Below are positions 24,548-32,106 of a DNA stretch of 64,000 nucleotides, piece after piece. A model generated the notes under the pieces. It was not told the DNA's origin and made no database searches. It saw nothing but the letters and a program-made list of their open reading frames with translations. Source of the DNA: Ignavibacteriales bacterium (GTDB lineage: Bacteria; Bacteroidota; Ignavibacteria; UBA10030); NCBI GenBank assembly GCA_026390575.1, contig JAPLFR010000007.1, positions 186,001 to 250,000 on the forward strand, given 5' to 3'. The first letter of the stretch is position 1; every line of letters starts with the position of its first letter. The position numbers were made by a program, and so were the translations under genes.

Positions 24548-25324
24548 TTATAATGCCTTTTTGAGTTGTCGCACCCAATGACCGATTTTCCGTGGTGAAT
24601 CTCCCCGTGCAATCCTTTGAACAAGCGCACTCCCAATAATGACACCGTCTGCATATTGAGCTATGCGATGTGCATCTGCTGGAGTTTTGATACCAAACCC
24701 AACCAGCACTGGATTTTTCTTTGCTGATTTTTTTACATTACCGATATACCTGCTGCTTATCGAGTTTCCGGCAGAGCCAGTGACACCGGTTGTTGACACG
24801 CAGTAAAGGAATCCTTCTGACGCGCGGTCGATCATCGCAATTCTCTCGGGTGGCGTTGTCGGGGTCACAAGAATAATATTTGCAAGACCTGAACTCACAC
24901 AAATTGATTTGTATCTTTTTGATTCTTCAAGAGGCAATTCTGGAAGAATCACGCCATCTACCCCGGCTTTGGCCGCTGCACGAAAAAACCTCTCTGCACC
25001 GTACGTAAGAATTGGATTCAGATAACCCATCAACACCAAAGGAATTTCCGAAGACCGACGGATTGTTTTTACATACGAAAGAATTTTATCCAATGTCGTT
25101 CCTTGTTGCAAAGCAACATGGGAACTGTGTTGAATTACCGGTCCCTCTGCAAGAGGATCTGAAAACGGCATCCCCAGCTCGATGATGTCGGCTCCGCCTT
25201 TTTCAATTTCTGATACTAAGGGAAGAGTAGCATCAAGAGTCGGAAATCCCGCTGTCAAAAAGCATACGAGCGCTTTTTCTTTTCGTGCTGAGAGTGCTTG
25301 GAGCTTTGTTGTGATACGATTCAT
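24548..25324 (-). CDS. trpA: Tryptophan synthase alpha chain
   Basis: Cleaves indole-3-glycerol phosphate to indole and glyceraldehyde 3-phosphate; the indole tunnels to TrpB. 258 residues. Catalytic Glu in [19 protein letters not shown], second acid in [14 protein letters not shown], and phosphate-binding GFGIKTP and GVIIGSA. The start overlaps the trpB stop by 4 bp (ATGA), indicating coupled translation. Confidence 0.97.
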
Positions 25325-26538
25325 TTTATTTTACCTCCGATCGACAGCGCAGTCGAGTACATTGCCATATCCTTGTCGCCGCGGCCTGAAAGATTGACCA
25401 CAACAATATCCTTTTTTGATGTTGCAGGCATAAGTTTATTCAGATAGGCGAATGCATGCGCCGATTCGAGCGCGGGAATAATTCCCTCCAATCGCGTCAG
25501 AAGATGCGCGGCACTCAGTGCTTGTTTATCGGTAATGGATACATATGTAACTCTGCCAAGGTCTTTCAGCGCGCTATGCTCCGGGCCAACGCCGGGATAA
25601 TCAAGTCCGGCAGAAATGGAGTGCGCTAATTCTACTTGTCCATTCTTATCCTGCAGTAAATAACTGAACGAACCGTGCAATACGCCTGGTGTTCCTTTTG
25701 TCAGTGTTGCTGCATGTTTTTTCGTATGCAATCCGCATCCGGCAGCCTCCACGCCAATCATGCGAACATGATCCTGAATAAACGGAAAAAACAAACCCAT
25801 AGCATTACTGCCGCCTCCAACACAGGCAAGAAGAATGGAAGGAACCCTGCCCTCGCGACCAAGAATTTGTTTCCGCGTTTCTTCACCAATGATCGATTGA
25901 AAATCACGTACCATCATTGGATACGGATGCGGGCCTACGACCGAGCCGATAATATAAAACGTACTGTCAACATTGGTTACCCAATCACGGATGGCTTCGC
26001 TTGTTGCATCCTTTAATGTGCGACTTCCTGTTGTAACCGAAACAACTTTCGCGCCCAACATTTTCATCCGATGCACATTTAATTCCTGCCTCTGAATATC
26101 TTCTTCACCCATATATACAACACACGGCAATCCCATTTTTGCCGCAACTGTTGCTGTTGCAACGCCGTGCTGCCCCGCGCCCGTTTCTGCAATGATACGT
26201 TTCTTGCCTGCGCGTTTCGCCAATAAAATCTGACCTATCGTGTTATTGATTTTATGTGCACCTGTATGGCAGAGATCTTCGCGCTTTAAATAGATTTTCC
26301 CGCGCCTATAATGTTCTGTCAATCGATTTGCAAACGTCAATGGTGTTGGACGCCCTGCGTACGTGTGCAGCATCGTCGTAAATTCTTTTTTAAATTTCGG
26401 GTCGCGTTTTGCTTCTCGATAAAGTTCTTCAAGTTCGAACAATGCGTGCATGAGTGTCTCTGGTACAAATCTGCCGCCGTAGCTGCCAAAATATCCGCGC
26501 TTATCTGGATAGTCGTATAAGTGTTTTGTTGATTTCAT
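25321..26538 (-). CDS. trpB: Tryptophan synthase beta chain
   Basis: PLP enzyme condensing indole with serine. 405 residues from the ATG at 26538, which has AAGGAATCGG just upstream; the ORF extends to 26574 but adds a non-family leader. PLP Lys in [11 protein letters not shown], glycine-rich phosphate loop [10 protein letters not shown], and GRGDKD near the C-terminus. A 281-bp spacer with four hairpins separates it from trpF, the only large gap in the operon. Confidence 0.97.
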
Positions 26539-26819
26539 TTTTCCGATTCCTTGTTTTGTATCATTCTTCATCACCGCCAGTTACTTTCGGACAGTATAAT
26601 ATCCTTTTTTATTGTGGAACTCCTAACGGAATTCTCTGTCGCGTGTTACTGTTTTCCACAAACCTTGAATCCCTCGCGGGATTCTTTTCTCGTTTTGCTC
26701 GTTCGACAATTGTTCAACTCCATTAGGAATTGTTTGTTTTTACATATTTGTCGGTAATCTGAAATGAACTCCATAGGAGTTCAACCGATATTCTGGTAAA
26801 AAATAAATAGTCACAGATA
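26539..26819 (-). other. trpF-trpB intercistronic spacer
   Basis: All other junctions from trpE to trpA overlap by 4 bp, but trpF and trpB are separated by about 280 bp with no coding content. The spacer is mostly occupied by the four-palindrome array at 26617-26782. A separate internal promoter for trpBA could also lie here but is not evident. Confidence 0.6.
26617..26782. repeat. Array of four short palindromes at about 50-bp spacing
   Basis: Four hairpin-forming units share the plan GAAyyCC-N3/4-GGrrTTC: 26617-26634 (one mismatch), 26667-26684 (perfect 7-bp arms), 26715-26732 (CAACTCC/GGAATTG) and 26766-26782 (perfect GAACTCC-ATA-GGAGTTC). Their starts are 50, 48 and 51 bp apart, suggesting a degenerate tandem repeat of about 50 bp. 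Similar GAACTCC...GGAGTTC units with neighbouring ACATATT-type words are, as far as I recall, dispersed in Bacteroidota genomes. As part of the trp transcript they would form a row of stem-loops. Confidence 0.8.
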
Positions 26820-27437
26820 TCAAACACTTTCTATTTGATTGAGTTTTTCAAACAGCAACTTCAGTTTAGATCTACTTTTTTTTTCTGGACTTTCTTCAAC
26901 TCCACTGTTCACATCCACAGCATACGGCCGCACTTTCTGTGCTGCTTCAATTATATTTTCCGGTGTCAAACCACCGGCAAGAATAATGCGCCCATACTCC
27001 TTTGCTTTTATGGCTATTTCCCAATCAAAAGTCTGACCTGTACCGCCGAGCTTGCCGGATATCTTCGTATCTAAAAGGTACGCTGATCCTTTATATCGGC
27101 GAAGGATTTCCGGATTAAAGCTGGAATCAACACGAAATGATTTATACACAGGTACCGGAAAATTGGCAAGCTGTTTTGGCGATTCATTTCCATGAAGTTG
27201 AACGCAATTGATTCCTGTTTGTTCAATTACTCCAATAATTTCTTCTTGTGGTACATCAACAAAAACTCCAATCGGCACAACAAATGGCGGCAGTGCCCGA
27301 ATGATTTTTCGAGCGGCACTCGGAGCAATATAGCGCGGACTTGATTTAACGAAAATGAATCCCAGTGCGTCAGCGCCAAGTTCTGCCGCATAGAGCGCAT
27401 CATCAATATTCGTAATACCGCAAATTTTTACTTTCAC
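26820..27437 (-). CDS. trpF: Phosphoribosylanthranilate isomerase
   Basis: Amadori rearrangement of phosphoribosylanthranilate to CdRP. 205 residues. Catalytic Cys in VKICGITN at the N-terminus and catalytic Asp in AVDVNSGVE near the C-terminus; GADALGFIF and ILAGGLTPEN are standard TIM-barrel phosphate and core motifs. Overlaps trpC by 4 bp. Confidence 0.96.
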   Translation of the reverse strand: MKVKICGITNIDDALYAAELGADALGFIFVKSSPRYIAPSAARKIIRALPPFVVPIGVFVDVPQEEIIGVIEQTGINCVQLHGNESPKQLANFPVPVYKSFRVDSSFNPEILRRYKGSAYLLDTKISGKLGGTGQTFDWEIAIKAKEYGRIILAGGLTPENIIEAAQKVRPYAVDVNSGVEESPEKKSRSKLKLLFEKLNQIESV

Positions 27438-28228
27438 TTGCTTATATCCTTTGAGGTTATCAGCAGTGCACGCAATGCCTCCCCAGGATTGTGTGCACGC
27501 ATGAAGCTTTCGCCAACAAGGACCGCGCGAATGCCGTGCGCGGCCAGCTGCTCGATCTCTTTTCTATTTGTAATTCCGCTTTCGCTGACGATAATGATTT
27601 CTTTGGGAATTCGAGAAGCTACCCGAATGGTTGTCGATATATCTACTGCGAAGTTTGATAGGTTTCGATTATTGACCCCAATCATTCTTGCCGGAATAAA
27701 ATTAAGAATATTGAGTTCGCGTATCGTATGTACTTCTACGAGACATTCAAGTCCAAGTGATGCCGCTTCATGAAACAAATCGCGCATTCGCTCTGGTTTC
27801 AACGCTGCCGCTATCAAGAGTACGGCATCAGCGCCAAACGCTTTTGCTTCTGCAAGCTGGTACGAATCTATAATAAAATCTTTTCGCAGAATCGGTATTG
27901 GCACAGATGAACGCATGTCTGCGATAAAACGGATGTCTCCTTGAAAATATTTTTTATCCGTTAACACCGAAAGCGCACTGGCACCGCCGTCAACATATGC
28001 ACGTGCTATCTCCAACGGATGAAAATCTTCCCGGATGACTTGCTTTGACGGTGATGCTTTCTTAATCTCCGCTATGACAACAGTATCTTTTCCACTTAAG
28101 GCTTTTTGCAATGAGTAACAATTCCGTGCAAAACCCGACATGTCTTTCAGCTGCTCGAGCGGCATTGCTTTTTTCGCAAGCGCAACTTCCTGCCGCTTAT
28201 GTTCAAGAATTTCTTCGAGGATGTTCAT
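27434..28228 (-). CDS. trpC: Indole-3-glycerol-phosphate synthase
   Basis: Ring closure of CdRP to indole-3-glycerol phosphate. 264 residues. IAEIKKASPSK near residue 52 carries the catalytic Lys; LRKDFIID, EVHT, GVNNRNLSNF and VSESGI follow in family order. Separate from trpF, unlike the E. coli fusion. Four-bp overlaps on both sides (trpD, trpF). Confidence 0.97.
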   Translation of the reverse strand: MNILEEILEHKRQEVALAKKAMPLEQLKDMSGFARNCYSLQKALSGKDTVVIAEIKKASPSKQVIREDFHPLEIARAYVDGGASALSVLTDKKYFQGDIRFIADMRSSVPIPILRKDFIIDSYQLAEAKAFGADAVLLIAAALKPERMRDLFHEAASLGLECLVEVHTIRELNILNFIPARMIGVNNRNLSNFAVDISTTIRVASRIPKEIIIVSESGITNRKEIEQLAAHGIRAVLVGESFMRAHNPGEALRALLITSKDISK

Positions 28229-29238
28229 GGCTGGTCGGTATATTGAATAAGTTTTTTCAATTTCTCCAATGCTTTGCCGGAATTAATTGACTCTTCGGCT
28301 TTCTGCTTTCCTTCAAGGATGGTATTCGCTTTTCCTGAAACATAAATTCCAAGCGCCGCATTCGCAACAACTACATCACGCGCAGAACTCTTCCCGCCTT
28401 GCAACACCTTCATCGCGATGGCCGCATTCGCATTCTTGTCACCGCCGTGTAGACCATCAAGTGTCAGCTTTGAAAAACCAAAATCCTCCGGCTGTAAATG
28501 ATATTCACGCAATTGTTCATTCTTATTTACTTCATAGACTTTTGTTCCACTGGAGAGCGTTACTTCATCCATGCCGTCATTGCTGTGGACAACGCATGCT
28601 TTTTCAGCACCAAGCTTTTGGAGCGCACCAGCAAGTATAGGAGCAACTTGCGGATTGTAGACTCCTACGAGCTGACGTTTTACACCGGCCGGATTTGTCA
28701 ACGGACCGATAATATTGAAAAAACTCCGCACTCCTAATTCTGAACGCGGCTTTGCAGCGTATTTCATCGCCGGATGATGCAGCGGTGCAAATAAGAATCC
28801 GATGCCGATGCGGTTAATGCATGCCTGCACCGTTTCAGCCGAGCTCTGGACATTCACACCCAGCGCCGTGAGCACATCCGCACTGCCGCATTGACTTGAG
28901 ACAGAGCGATTGCCATGCTTTGCAACCGTGACGCCGGCCCCCGCCGCAACAAACGATGCAACAGTCGAAATGTTAAATGTGCCCAAACCATCGCCGCCGG
29001 TGCCGCACATATCAATTGCATCCGGATCTTCTATGGAAATCTTGACAGCATGTTCGCGCATCGTACGGGCAAAGCCTACAAGCTCATCCACCGTTTCGCC
29101 TTTTGCACGCAGAGCAATCATGAGGCCGGCAATTTGGGAATCGGTTGCCTGCCCGGTCATGATAGTATCCAGCGCGTTTGACGCTTCTGTTACTGTCAGG
29201 TGTTCGCCCGACAAACATTTTTCAATGTGTGTTTTCAT
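28225..29238 (-). CDS. trpD: Anthranilate phosphoribosyltransferase
   Basis: Adds phosphoribosyl to anthranilate. 337 residues. PRPP-binding CGTGGDGLGTFNIST near residue 81, KHGNRSVSSQCGSADVLTALG near 109, and the anthranilate-contact region FLFAPLHHPAMKY. Not fused to trpG. Overlaps trpG and trpC by 4 bp each. Confidence 0.97.
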   Translation of the reverse strand: MKTHIEKCLSGEHLTVTEASNALDTIMTGQATDSQIAGLMIALRAKGETVDELVGFARTMREHAVKISIEDPDAIDMCGTGGDGLGTFNISTVASFVAAGAGVTVAKHGNRSVSSQCGSADVLTALGVNVQSSAETVQACINRIGIGFLFAPLHHPAMKYAAKPRSELGVRSFFNIIGPLTNPAGVKRQLVGVYNPQVAPILAGALQKLGAEKACVVHSNDGMDEVTLSSGTKVYEVNKNEQLREYHLQPEDFGFSKLTLDGLHGGDKNANAAIAMKVLQGGKSSARDVVVANAALGIYVSGKANTILEGKQKAEESINSGKALEKLKKLIQYTDQP

Positions 29239-29810
29239 AGGATTTTATAAACCTCCAGCCAGTTATTAAGAATAATTTCACCATCCTGCGTAAGAACTGA
29301 TTCAGGATGAAATTGAATTCCTTCGATAGGATACTTCCGGTGTGTCACACCCATAATTATACCGTCGTATGTGCGGGCGGATATTTTGAGGTCATCAGGA
29401 AATTGTTGCGGTGAAATGATAAGCGAGTGGTAACGCCCTACAAGTAATGGATTTGCCACCGATTTGAGAATGGTCTCACCGGAATGCGTTACCGTTGAAG
29501 TTCTTCCGTGCATAAGCGAAGGTGCGTGCGTAATTTGCGCACCAAAAGCAAGACCAATTGCCTGGTGCCCGAGACACACGCCAAGGATTGGAATTGTTGA
29601 CCCGAAACGTTGAATCACTTCTACTGTTATGCCGGCATTTTCCGGCTTACCGGGACCCGGCGACAGGATGATACCGCGCGGCGCAAGACGTGCTATCTCA
29701 TCGGCAGCAAGCTCATTGTTACGCTTCACAAGAATATCCTTCGTCTTCTTGCCGATTGCCTGCACAAGATTGTACGTGAACGAATCATAATTATCGATCA
29801 CCAGAATCAT
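29235..29810 (-). CDS. trpG: Anthranilate synthase glutamine amidotransferase subunit
   Basis: Supplies ammonia to TrpE. 191 residues, class I glutamine amidotransferase: SPGPGKPENAG, nucleophile Cys in LGVCLGHQAIG, and the His/Glu pair in IQFHPESVLT. It could double as PabA in folate synthesis, since no separate copy is seen in this window. Coupled to trpE by a 4-bp overlap. Confidence 0.96.
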   Translation of the reverse strand: MILVIDNYDSFTYNLVQAIGKKTKDILVKRNNELAADEIARLAPRGIILSPGPGKPENAGITVEVIQRFGSTIPILGVCLGHQAIGLAFGAQITHAPSLMHGRTSTVTHSGETILKSVANPLLVGRYHSLIISPQQFPDDLKISARTYDGIIMGVTHRKYPIEGIQFHPESVLTQDGEIILNNWLEVYKIL

Positions 29811-31312
29811 TGCTGTTCTCCAGAATATCCATTACCACTGTGAATTTTCATGAGACCGTTCGATGCAACGGCGAGCGCATCGAGTAACGCTTGCGCTTTA
29901 TTCACAGTTTCTTTGTACTCAAGTTCCGGAACTGAATCCGCAACGATGCCCGCGCCTGCTTGAATGGTCAGCATGCCGTTCGCCGCAACAATTGTTCTGA
30001 TCGCAATGCACGTATCGAGTGCACCGTCAAAACCAAGGTAGCCGACCGCGCCAGCGTAAATCCCGCGCCGCACCGGTTCTAATTCATTGATAATTTCCAT
30101 TGCGCGGACTTTCGGAGCGCCAGAGACAGTACCGGCAGGAAAACAAGCCCGCAGTGCATCGATACTATTTGCATCCGCTTTGAGTTTTCCCTGCACTTCA
30201 GAAACCAGATGCATTACATGCGAAAACCGTTTCAGGCGTTTGAAGAAGGGAACGTGCACTGTGCCGTATTCACTCACACGTCCGATATCGTTGCGTCCCA
30301 AATCAACCAGCATCACATGTTCCGCCGCTTCCTTTTCATCGCGCAGCAATTCTTCCTCTAAAAGCTTGTCTTCTTGCACAGTTTTGCCGCGCTTGCGCGT
30401 ACCTGCAATCGGCATTACAGAAACAGTGCAATCCTGCACACGTACTAAAACTTCCGGCGAGGATCCGATAAGCTTTACAGATCCGTAATCGAGGTAAAAA
30501 AGATATGGGGATGGATTGATAATGCGCAGGGCACGATAAACAGGAAATGGATCGCCCGTGAACGGAACTTGCACTCGGCGCGAGAGAACAACTTGAAAGA
30601 TGTCGCCTTCGTGGATATAGTCCTTTGCGCGCCTGACCGACGAACAATACGCCTCGCGATCGGTGCCCTGTTGAACAGAAGCCAAATCACACTGAAAATT
30701 ATTCTCCAGTTCAGGCGGTTTGCCGAGCTGTGTAAGAATAGCCGTCAGCGTTTTTGCTCCATCATTGTACTGATCGTTCAGTGGGAGATTCTTTTCTACA
30801 AGAATATTATGTGTCACTGTTAAAAGCTGCTGGAGGTGATCAAACTTTACAACAGATTGAAACAGGCCAAACATTGCATCCGGTACATCATCCTTTGCGG
30901 TTGGATGCAAAGGAATATTTTCGATTTCCTGAACGCGGTCATAGCCGAAGTAACCAAGAAATCCGCCGGTAAATCCTTGCTGTTCATGCGCTACTGTACT
31001 TTGGTATCGGCGAGAAAACTCGTCCAGCACATCCAGGATTTTTCCACGGCGCTGTTCTTTTTTCACGCCGGATTCAATTTCAACGATATCACCTTTTGCT
31101 TTAATAATCAGAATCGGATCTGTTCCGACAAACGAAAACCGTCCGATTCGTTCGTCAGGTTCGACGCTCTCAAGAAGAAATGAATTTGAAGTCTTCGATC
31201 GAAGCGTCAGATAAATCGACACCGGTGTATGTAAATCGGCAAGCATCGTTTCCACAAGAGGAACGACCGAATGCGTTTGTGCAAGCTCTTTAAATTCTTC
31301 TTTTGTCATCAT
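29807..31312 (-). CDS. trpE: Anthranilate synthase component I
   Basis: Converts chorismate and ammonia to anthranilate, the committed step. 501 residues (two adjacent ATGs, 31312 and 31309). The feedback-inhibition motif LLES near residue 46 is where tryptophan normally binds. The chorismate-binding domain has GDIFQVVLSRR, GSSPEVLVR, IAGTRKRG, DLGRNDIGRV, FPAGTVSGAPK and YAGAVGYLG. First structural gene of the operon, directly behind a leader peptide and terminator. Confidence 0.97.
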   Translation of the reverse strand: MMTKEEFKELAQTHSVVPLVETMLADLHTPVSIYLTLRSKTSNSFLLESVEPDERIGRFSFVGTDPILIIKAKGDIVEIESGVKKEQRRGKILDVLDEFSRRYQSTVAHEQQGFTGGFLGYFGYDRVQEIENIPLHPTAKDDVPDAMFGLFQSVVKFDHLQQLLTVTHNILVEKNLPLNDQYNDGAKTLTAILTQLGKPPELENNFQCDLASVQQGTDREAYCSSVRRAKDYIHEGDIFQVVLSRRVQVPFTGDPFPVYRALRIINPSPYLFYLDYGSVKLIGSSPEVLVRVQDCTVSVMPIAGTRKRGKTVQEDKLLEEELLRDEKEAAEHVMLVDLGRNDIGRVSEYGTVHVPFFKRLKRFSHVMHLVSEVQGKLKADANSIDALRACFPAGTVSGAPKVRAMEIINELEPVRRGIYAGAVGYLGFDGALDTCIAIRTIVAANGMLTIQAGAGIVADSVPELEYKETVNKAQALLDALAVASNGLMKIHSGNGYSGEQQ

Positions 31313-31330: not shown

Positions 31331-31363
31331 AAAAAACCCTTCCAGGGTGATCCGGGAAGGGTT
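31331..31363 (-). terminator. trp attenuator terminator
   Basis: On the minus strand AACCCTTCC (31355-31363) pairs with GGAAGGGTT (31335-31343) around an 11-nt loop, and is followed by a run of six Ts (including the last two stem bases). The hairpin ends about 19 nt before the trpE start and 29 nt after the leader-peptide stop, the expected position for a Trp-tRNA-controlled attenuator. Confidence 0.88.
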
Positions 31364-31391
31364 AAGAATACAATCTGCGTATGCTTATAAA

Positions 31392-31487
31392 TTAACTATC
31401 CGTTTTCATACCTGTTCGTTTGGATACACTGCTGCGCCACCACCAACGGTTATTTGAAGAGACGATATGATTAACGGATTGTGACAT
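31392..31487 (-). CDS. trpL: trp operon leader peptide (31 aa, three consecutive Trp)
   Basis: ATG at 31487 opens a 31-codon ORF ending TAA at 31392. Codons 15-17 are TGG TGG TGG (residues NNRWWWRSS), in a stretch where chance Trp triplets are very rare. It lies between a good promoter and the intrinsic terminator ahead of trpE. In classical attenuation, ribosomes stalled at Trp codons allow an antiterminator to form. The 5' UTR would be very short (about 7 nt) and the ribosome site weak. ATCCGT near the start of the leader can pair with ACGGAT near its end, a candidate early hairpin; the antiterminator pairing itself was not resolved by eye. Confidence 0.85.
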   Translation of the reverse strand: MSQSVNHIVSSNNRWWWRSSVSKRTGMKTDS

Positions 31488-31500
31488 ACTTTACACAAGT

Positions 31501-31529
31501 AATATACATGATCGGTGGAAATAAGTCAA
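31501..31529 (-). promoter_or_regulatory. Promoter of the trp operon
   Basis: On the minus strand TTGACT (31524-31529) and TATATT (31501-31506) are separated by exactly 17 bp. Transcription would begin near 31494, just ahead of the leader-peptide ATG at 31487. It sits between the RAYT gene stop and trpL, so trp need not depend on read-through from the transposase. Confidence 0.7.
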
Positions 31530-31566: not shown

Positions 31567-32106
31567 TTACCACTGTGGAATATTATCCGGATCATCTCTC
31601 TTGATTGCCCATTGGAGAACGTTATTGTGGATGTAATCCCTGATCTTGTTTAATTCCTTGTCGTTGCGGATAACGCGGTCGTAAAACCGCTTCTGCCAAA
31701 CGGGGAAAGATGATGTATGTCGCATTTCATTAATTCTTTTTGTCGCCGACGATTTGAATCCAGCAATGATAGAACCCAAGGATCGAGGTTTCCTCTGTAG
31801 GGACGCACAGCTGTGCGTCCCTACGTTTGGAATTGGCAATTCATTTTTAATCACGATGATACCGTGTATATGATTGGGCATTATTACAAAGACATCCAAT
31901 TCAATTCCGGGGCGTATGAATGGCGTTCTTAACCATTCTTCTTGCACAATTTTCCCAATCTCATTTAATCGCATTTTTCCATCCACAATTTCACCCAATA
32001 CACATTCGTGGTCATGTGTACAGATGGTGATAAAATATTCTCCTGGTTGGGAATAATCGTATTCCTTCAAACGAATAGATTTTCGGTGATAGTGGTTTGT
32101 AGTCAT
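31567..32106 (-). CDS. REP-associated tyrosine transposase (Y1/HUH family)
   Basis: 179-residue single-domain nuclease of the TnpA-REP type, thought to cut and mobilise REP palindromes. The HUH pair is in MPNHIHGII near residue 77 and the catalytic Tyr in WQKRFYDRVIRN near 142. No IS ends or second ORF are visible. Part of the coding sequence (NVGTHSCASLQRK) is itself a perfect 28-bp palindrome, so the gene seems to have absorbed one of its own repeats in frame, between the HUH motif and the Tyr helix. Confidence 0.88.
   Translation of the reverse strand: MTTNHYHRKSIRLKEYDYSQPGEYFITICTHDHECVLGEIVDGKMRLNEIGKIVQEEWLRTPFIRPGIELDVFVIMPNHIHGIIVIKNELPIPNVGTHSCASLQRKPRSLGSIIAGFKSSATKRINEMRHTSSFPVWQKRFYDRVIRNDKELNKIRDYIHNNVLQWAIKRDDPDNIPQW
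31797..31824. repeat. Perfect 28-bp palindrome inside the RAYT gene
   Basis: GTAGGGACGCACAG followed directly by its exact reverse complement CTGTGCGTCCCTAC. It is of the REP type expected to be bound by this transposase family, and lies in frame within the gene. Confidence 0.92.

Follow-up and report, generated by a model that had tools for sequence, protein, structure and literature searches.

The 64,000-nucleotide stretch of DNA analysed here (the window) carries, at positions 31529-31331 of the minus strand and upstream of the trpEGDCFBA operon, a block that is best explained as a ribosome-mediated transcription attenuator of that operon, and in all probability is one. Read along the minus strand, the elements follow one another in the order -35, 17 nt, -10, 13 nt, a short open reading frame, 28 nt, a hairpin with six T residues, 18 nt and trpE. 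The parts are as follows.

31529-31501, minus strand: promoter, with -35 TTGACT at 31529-31524, a 17-nt spacer and -10 TATATT at 31506-31501
31487-31392, minus strand: predicted trpL leader peptide ORF, MSQSVNHIVSSNNRWWWRSSVSKRTGMKTDS as translated from the sequence, 31 sense codons plus stop
31363-31331, minus strand: intrinsic terminator (segments 3:4), AACCCTTCC at 31363-31355 and GGAAGGGTT at 31343-31335, T6 at 31336-31331

Promoter, 31-codon frame with three TGG codons and terminator ahead of trpE are all in the sequence as the original prediction described them. Its 9-bp GC-rich hairpin does have a 9-bp stem, but the description as GC-rich does not hold, five of the nine pairs being G-C with two further G-C pairs closer to the loop. 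The three consecutive TGG codons of trpL occupy 31445-31437, and trpL is the sole ORF of 60 codons or fewer with WWW in the window, where shuffled windows average 0.15. Between the -10 element and the trpL ATG (31487) there are 13 nt, and the terminator ends 18 nt before the trpE ATG (31312). Transcription is predicted to begin near 31494, so that the trpL 5' UTR would be about 5-8 nt if the start falls 6-8 nt past the -10 element. Upstream of the block, with its end 38 nt from the trp -35, is a transposase-like ORF of the IS200/REP-associated type (31567-32106, minus strand, weak PF01797 match). Downstream, the leader is followed by a complete operon, identified by Pfam matches, in the order trpE, G, D, C, F, B, A.

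29807-31312, minus strand: trpE, anthranilate synthase component I, 501 aa (PF00425 3e-94, PF04715 2.8e-36)
29235-29810, minus strand: trpG (PF00117 6e-52)
28225-29238, minus strand: trpD (PF00591 4e-92)
27434-28228, minus strand: trpC (PF00218 1e-86)
26820-27437, minus strand: trpF (PF00697 2e-44)
25321-26574, minus strand: trpB (PF00291 4e-43), whose listed GTG start is possibly too far upstream
24548-25324, minus strand: trpA (PF00290 6e-83)

When 391 genomes of the class were searched at the DNA level, the block turned up in five further species of the genus at 81-97% identity; in two of these relatives (L031 and L033) the stretch matches public MAGs named Ignavibacteriae. Within the genus alignment the conserved island runs from the -35 to the terminator, with the sequence further upstream unalignable and that downstream changing fast. 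CTTGAC and the -10 element are kept at 17-nt spacing in all six species. Among the six distinct sequences trpL is always 96 nt long, free of stops and frameshifts, with 18 variable codons. The W codons, whose conservation in relatives had been singled out by the original prediction, are invariant in the six species, and the most distant of them (L116) has gained a fourth (WWWW). Also invariant are the final codons and stop of trpL (ACG GAT AGT TAA) and the terminator with all of its pairs, synonymous sites included, which fits a constraint acting on the RNA. Inverted-repeat REP-like elements (GGAGAGGG..) lie between attenuator and trpE in L033/L115 and in L116, and none was found in the 64-kb window.

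The trpE upstream regions of 163 genomes of the phylum contain a short WW/WxW ORF in 114 cases and WWW in 84; for the opposite strand the counts are 10 and 0. Because these genomes are a sample chosen mainly for TrpE similarity, the fractions are not phylum-wide rates. Between leader and trpE a terminator score of at least 22 is reached at 109 of the 113 scored leaders, in none of 565 shuffles, and at one of 50 leaderless loci (those with no trpL). The reading as ribosome-mediated trp attenuation is thus supported by invariant W codons in six species and by leader and terminator that recur, W codons included, in the phylum; the arrangement is common there and not isolated, which weakens its standing as the notable case that had been proposed. 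Trp-run ORFs before trpE (FWRWWWR, NWWWEK, NNWWWW) also occur in L037, L039, L058 and L084, records named Poribacteria, Neomarinimicrobiota, a deltaproteobacterium and Smithella. These comparisons bear on whether the arrangement could have come about by chance, with an unrelated upstream transcript ending at the terminator and the ORF left untranslated. The transposase-like ORF just upstream on the same strand could supply such a transcript. It is, however, absent from the corresponding place in the relatives, where the flanks differ and the block is kept, and with the phylum-wide recurrence this makes a chance origin barely conceivable.

Folding of the leader RNA yields two alternatives, whose helices are listed here.

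31448-31434 (CGUUGGUGGUGGCGC, W codons) with 31429-31417, minus strand: segments 1:2, terminator-permissive fold (RNAfold/RNAalifold)
31489-31484 (includes the trpL AUG) with 31384-31379, minus strand: outer helix 1, terminator-permissive fold (RNAfold/RNAalifold)
31482-31464 with 31412-31395, minus strand: outer helix 2, terminator-permissive fold (RNAfold/RNAalifold)
31429-31410 (segment 2) with 31362-31347 (segment 3 and loop), minus strand: putative antiterminator of the starved-state fold, enclosing a local hairpin at 31387-31363

In the minimum-energy fold (RNAfold) the W-codon segment is paired, the outer helices close around it and the terminator is formed. The leader is clearly more stable than dinucleotide shuffles only with the terminator included (z -2.85, compared with z 0.0 without segment 4). 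Over the six species 92% of the cells of segments 1:2 are paired, with covariation that is not clear. Outer helix 2 is partly broken in L116, in which AACUAUC:GAUAGUU could pair in a shifted register. The helix that holds the trpL AUG pairs in all six species, with one change from U-G to U-A, and initiation could for that reason itself be a switch. This would suit a leader that acts mainly as a constitutive or translation-coupled terminator, in which translation of trpL and not tryptophan decides and the W run is incidental. Such a reading is quite improbable given that W runs are present in all six species and that WWW is found 84 times in the phylum against none on the other strand; the W codons are the shared element, since the leaders otherwise differ in sequence.

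The pairing that could compete with the terminator had not been resolvable by eye in the original prediction; with alternative folds computed, 31429-31410 pairing with 31362-31347 emerges as the candidate. To model the starved state, a ribosome was placed at the first W codon, the RNA it covers and all RNA 5' of it were removed, and segment 4 was taken as not yet made. Under this calculation a ribosome at the W codons gives segment 3 a probability of 0.57 of being paired upstream; the value is 0.03 for a ribosome at the stop codon and 0.05 for ribosome-free RNA. The E. coli K-12 trp leader, treated identically as a control, gives 0.62 at the W codons and 0.00 at the stop. Tested against shuffles as single leaders, neither is significant (p 0.12-0.18 here, p 0.22 for E. 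coli trp). In the genus alignment 97.3% of antiterminator cells are paired, a value that falls to 26-45% when the arms are slid by 1-3 columns. Two pairs have changed on both sides, both in L116, a covariation score reached by 13 of 500 shuffles. The alignment of these six close species thereby gives the predicted antiterminator modest support. When RNA 5' of the stalled ribosome is allowed to pair as well, the ribosome ends up enclosed by the outer helices, the antiterminator is prevented and upstream pairing of segment 3 is 0.05; the model therefore requires something, such as a second ribosome, to hinder pairing of this 5' part. With the trpL AUG 42 nt ahead of the first W codon, there is enough space for a second ribosome behind a stalled one.

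An antiterminator formed by the stop-codon region GGAUAGUUAA with UUAACCCUUCC was also considered and set aside; both are invariant in the six species, so covariation cannot test the pairing. Within the host class the complementarity between stop-codon region and terminator arm is not above that of shuffles (z 0.06), which suggests an antiterminator that is nearer the W codons or weaker there. Outside the class, complementarity between the leader end and the terminator 5' arm is strong and in many cases obvious, with a mean z of -1.6 and up to 11 perfect pairs.

Taken as an attenuator, the block may work as follows. RNA polymerase would begin near 31494, and a ribosome would load on the almost leaderless trpL. 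With ample charged tRNA-Trp the ribosome would clear the three Trp codons, segment 2 would pair with segment 1 or be covered by the ribosome, the terminator at 31363-31331 would form and most transcripts would stop before trpE. Under tryptophan shortage the ribosome would stall at the W codons and mask segment 1, leaving 31429-31410 to pair with the terminator 5' arm and loop at 31362-31347, and readthrough would follow. A second ribosome behind the stalled one would presumably hold the 5' part open. In a transcript carrying no ribosome, the 5' part including the AUG would pair with 31384-31379, and the terminator would form too.

Regulation by a protein or by another RNA device (a TrpR-type repressor, TRAP or a T-box), with the hairpin as its target, is highly improbable. 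The genome does encode a TrpR-family protein (PF01371, 95 aa; G000:C16:540829-541196, L160), and TATCAG-RTAAAGTATG sites near it resemble TAAAGTATG before trpL. The gene, the only one of its family there, stands directly before hisG and hisD, both named from their sequence, however; a perfect palindrome ACTTTATC-AG-GATAAAGT precedes hisG, and two related sites lie at the start of the TrpR-family gene. It therefore looks like a his regulator, and probably is one judging from this gene order and these sites. The trp site retains one half of the motif only: what the trp leader shares with the his sites is the half-site TAAAGTATG (half-site-like TAAAGT), which is conserved in the genus. A search for TAAAGTATG as a common operator, allowing at most 3 mismatches genome-wide, returned 229 places compared with 148 for the reversed control, with nothing decisive beyond the his sites. 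A repressor could add to attenuation, as in E. coli; such an addition is possible but unneeded. The T-box model RF00230 has no match in the whole genome or the window, and a (G/U)AG repeat array of the kind bound by TRAP is not visible in the leader by eye. The Rfam Trp_leader model RF00513 likewise gives no match, either at the gathering score or at E values up to 5.

The near-leaderless start of trpL, considered unusual in the original prediction, recurs across the phylum. Counted from where the best -10 element ends, the leader ATG is 13 nt away in this genome and mostly 5-13 nt away in its order and class, which points to transcription starting at or a few nt from the AUG as the usual case here. 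In family f2 (L136, L137, L182, L183, L002) only 2-8 nt separate the -10 from the trpL ATG, and there transcription may begin right at that ATG, unless translation in fact starts from a later one. A short 5' UTR is possible for the TrpR-family gene at the his locus as well. A leaderless-type start of trpL has been reported in Sinorhizobium meliloti (PMC7298713) and a leaderless one in Streptomyces lividans (PMC8079986). Passages in PMC3155529 and PMC6847099 describe Bacteroidetes in general as being without Shine-Dalgarno sequences.

Distribution of the leader within the phylum follows one TrpE lineage, in which it stands ahead of most trpE genes. A rapidly built TrpE tree of 81 rows with SH-aLRT support only, from which 22 rows, all of other classes, were left out, requires 7 changes for the leader compared with 26.6 for shuffled labels, and one lineage of 24 rows is entirely without a leader. 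Most other genera of the host family carry the leader-free TrpE lineage; the host genus carries the leader lineage. Family f1 (G489, G539 and G630 versus G549) has two TrpE lineages, even within one genus, and the attenuator is found with only one of them, which suggests replacement of trp genes. There is about an even chance that trp leader-peptide attenuation goes far back in Bacteroidota/Ignavibacteriota and has been inherited widely there, carried along with one TrpE lineage and typically with an (almost) leaderless trpL, and that in this genus completion of the leader also folds the start codon away. A typically (almost) leaderless trpL would fit a phylum in which Shine-Dalgarno sequences are little used.

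Some attenuators in Bacteroidetes/Chlorobi are said to have been predicted by Vitreschak et al. in 2004, and a comparative survey by Lopatovskaya et al. in 2010 reportedly lists some amino-acid attenuators in the same group. The phyla with known leader-peptide systems given by Naville and Gautheret in 2010 (PMC2965389) do not include this one. A literature search to which most subscription papers were out of reach turned up nothing on trp leaders in this phylum. The arrangement is more widespread than the literature found describes. Textbook gene control by translation would thereby be extended to a further phylum, where it is indicated to be common and not an exception, and attenuation becomes testable in culturable relatives with the same arrangement. 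The near-leaderless leader ORFs could also be handy natural reporters of how Bacteroidota ribosomes start, because these bacteria rarely use Shine-Dalgarno signals.

As judged from its sequence, the block has the features of ribosome-mediated trp attenuation, a kind already known from E. coli. The trp attenuator of E. coli (trpL, RF00513) likewise has a leader peptide with Trp codons, a terminator before trpE and an alternative antiterminator, the last being a predicted one here, and it behaves in silico in the same way with the ribosome stalled and at the stop codon. It differs in having two W codons, compared with three here; the present peptide is longer, the 5' UTR would be about 7 nt, the stop codon lies downstream of segment 2 and a local hairpin sits inside the predicted antiterminator. 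The trpL-trpE(G) system of S. meliloti (PMC7298713) is also a leader-peptide attenuator of trpE, from another phylum and with a 14-aa peptide, whose transcript starts at the AUG, whereas about 5-8 nt would precede the AUG here. TrpL1 of S. lividans (MFAHSTRNWWWTAHPAAH; PMC8079986) shares a WWW peptide before trpE and a Rho-independent terminator and has a leaderless transcript; in that actinobacterium trpE is monocistronic and the peptide is 18 aa long.
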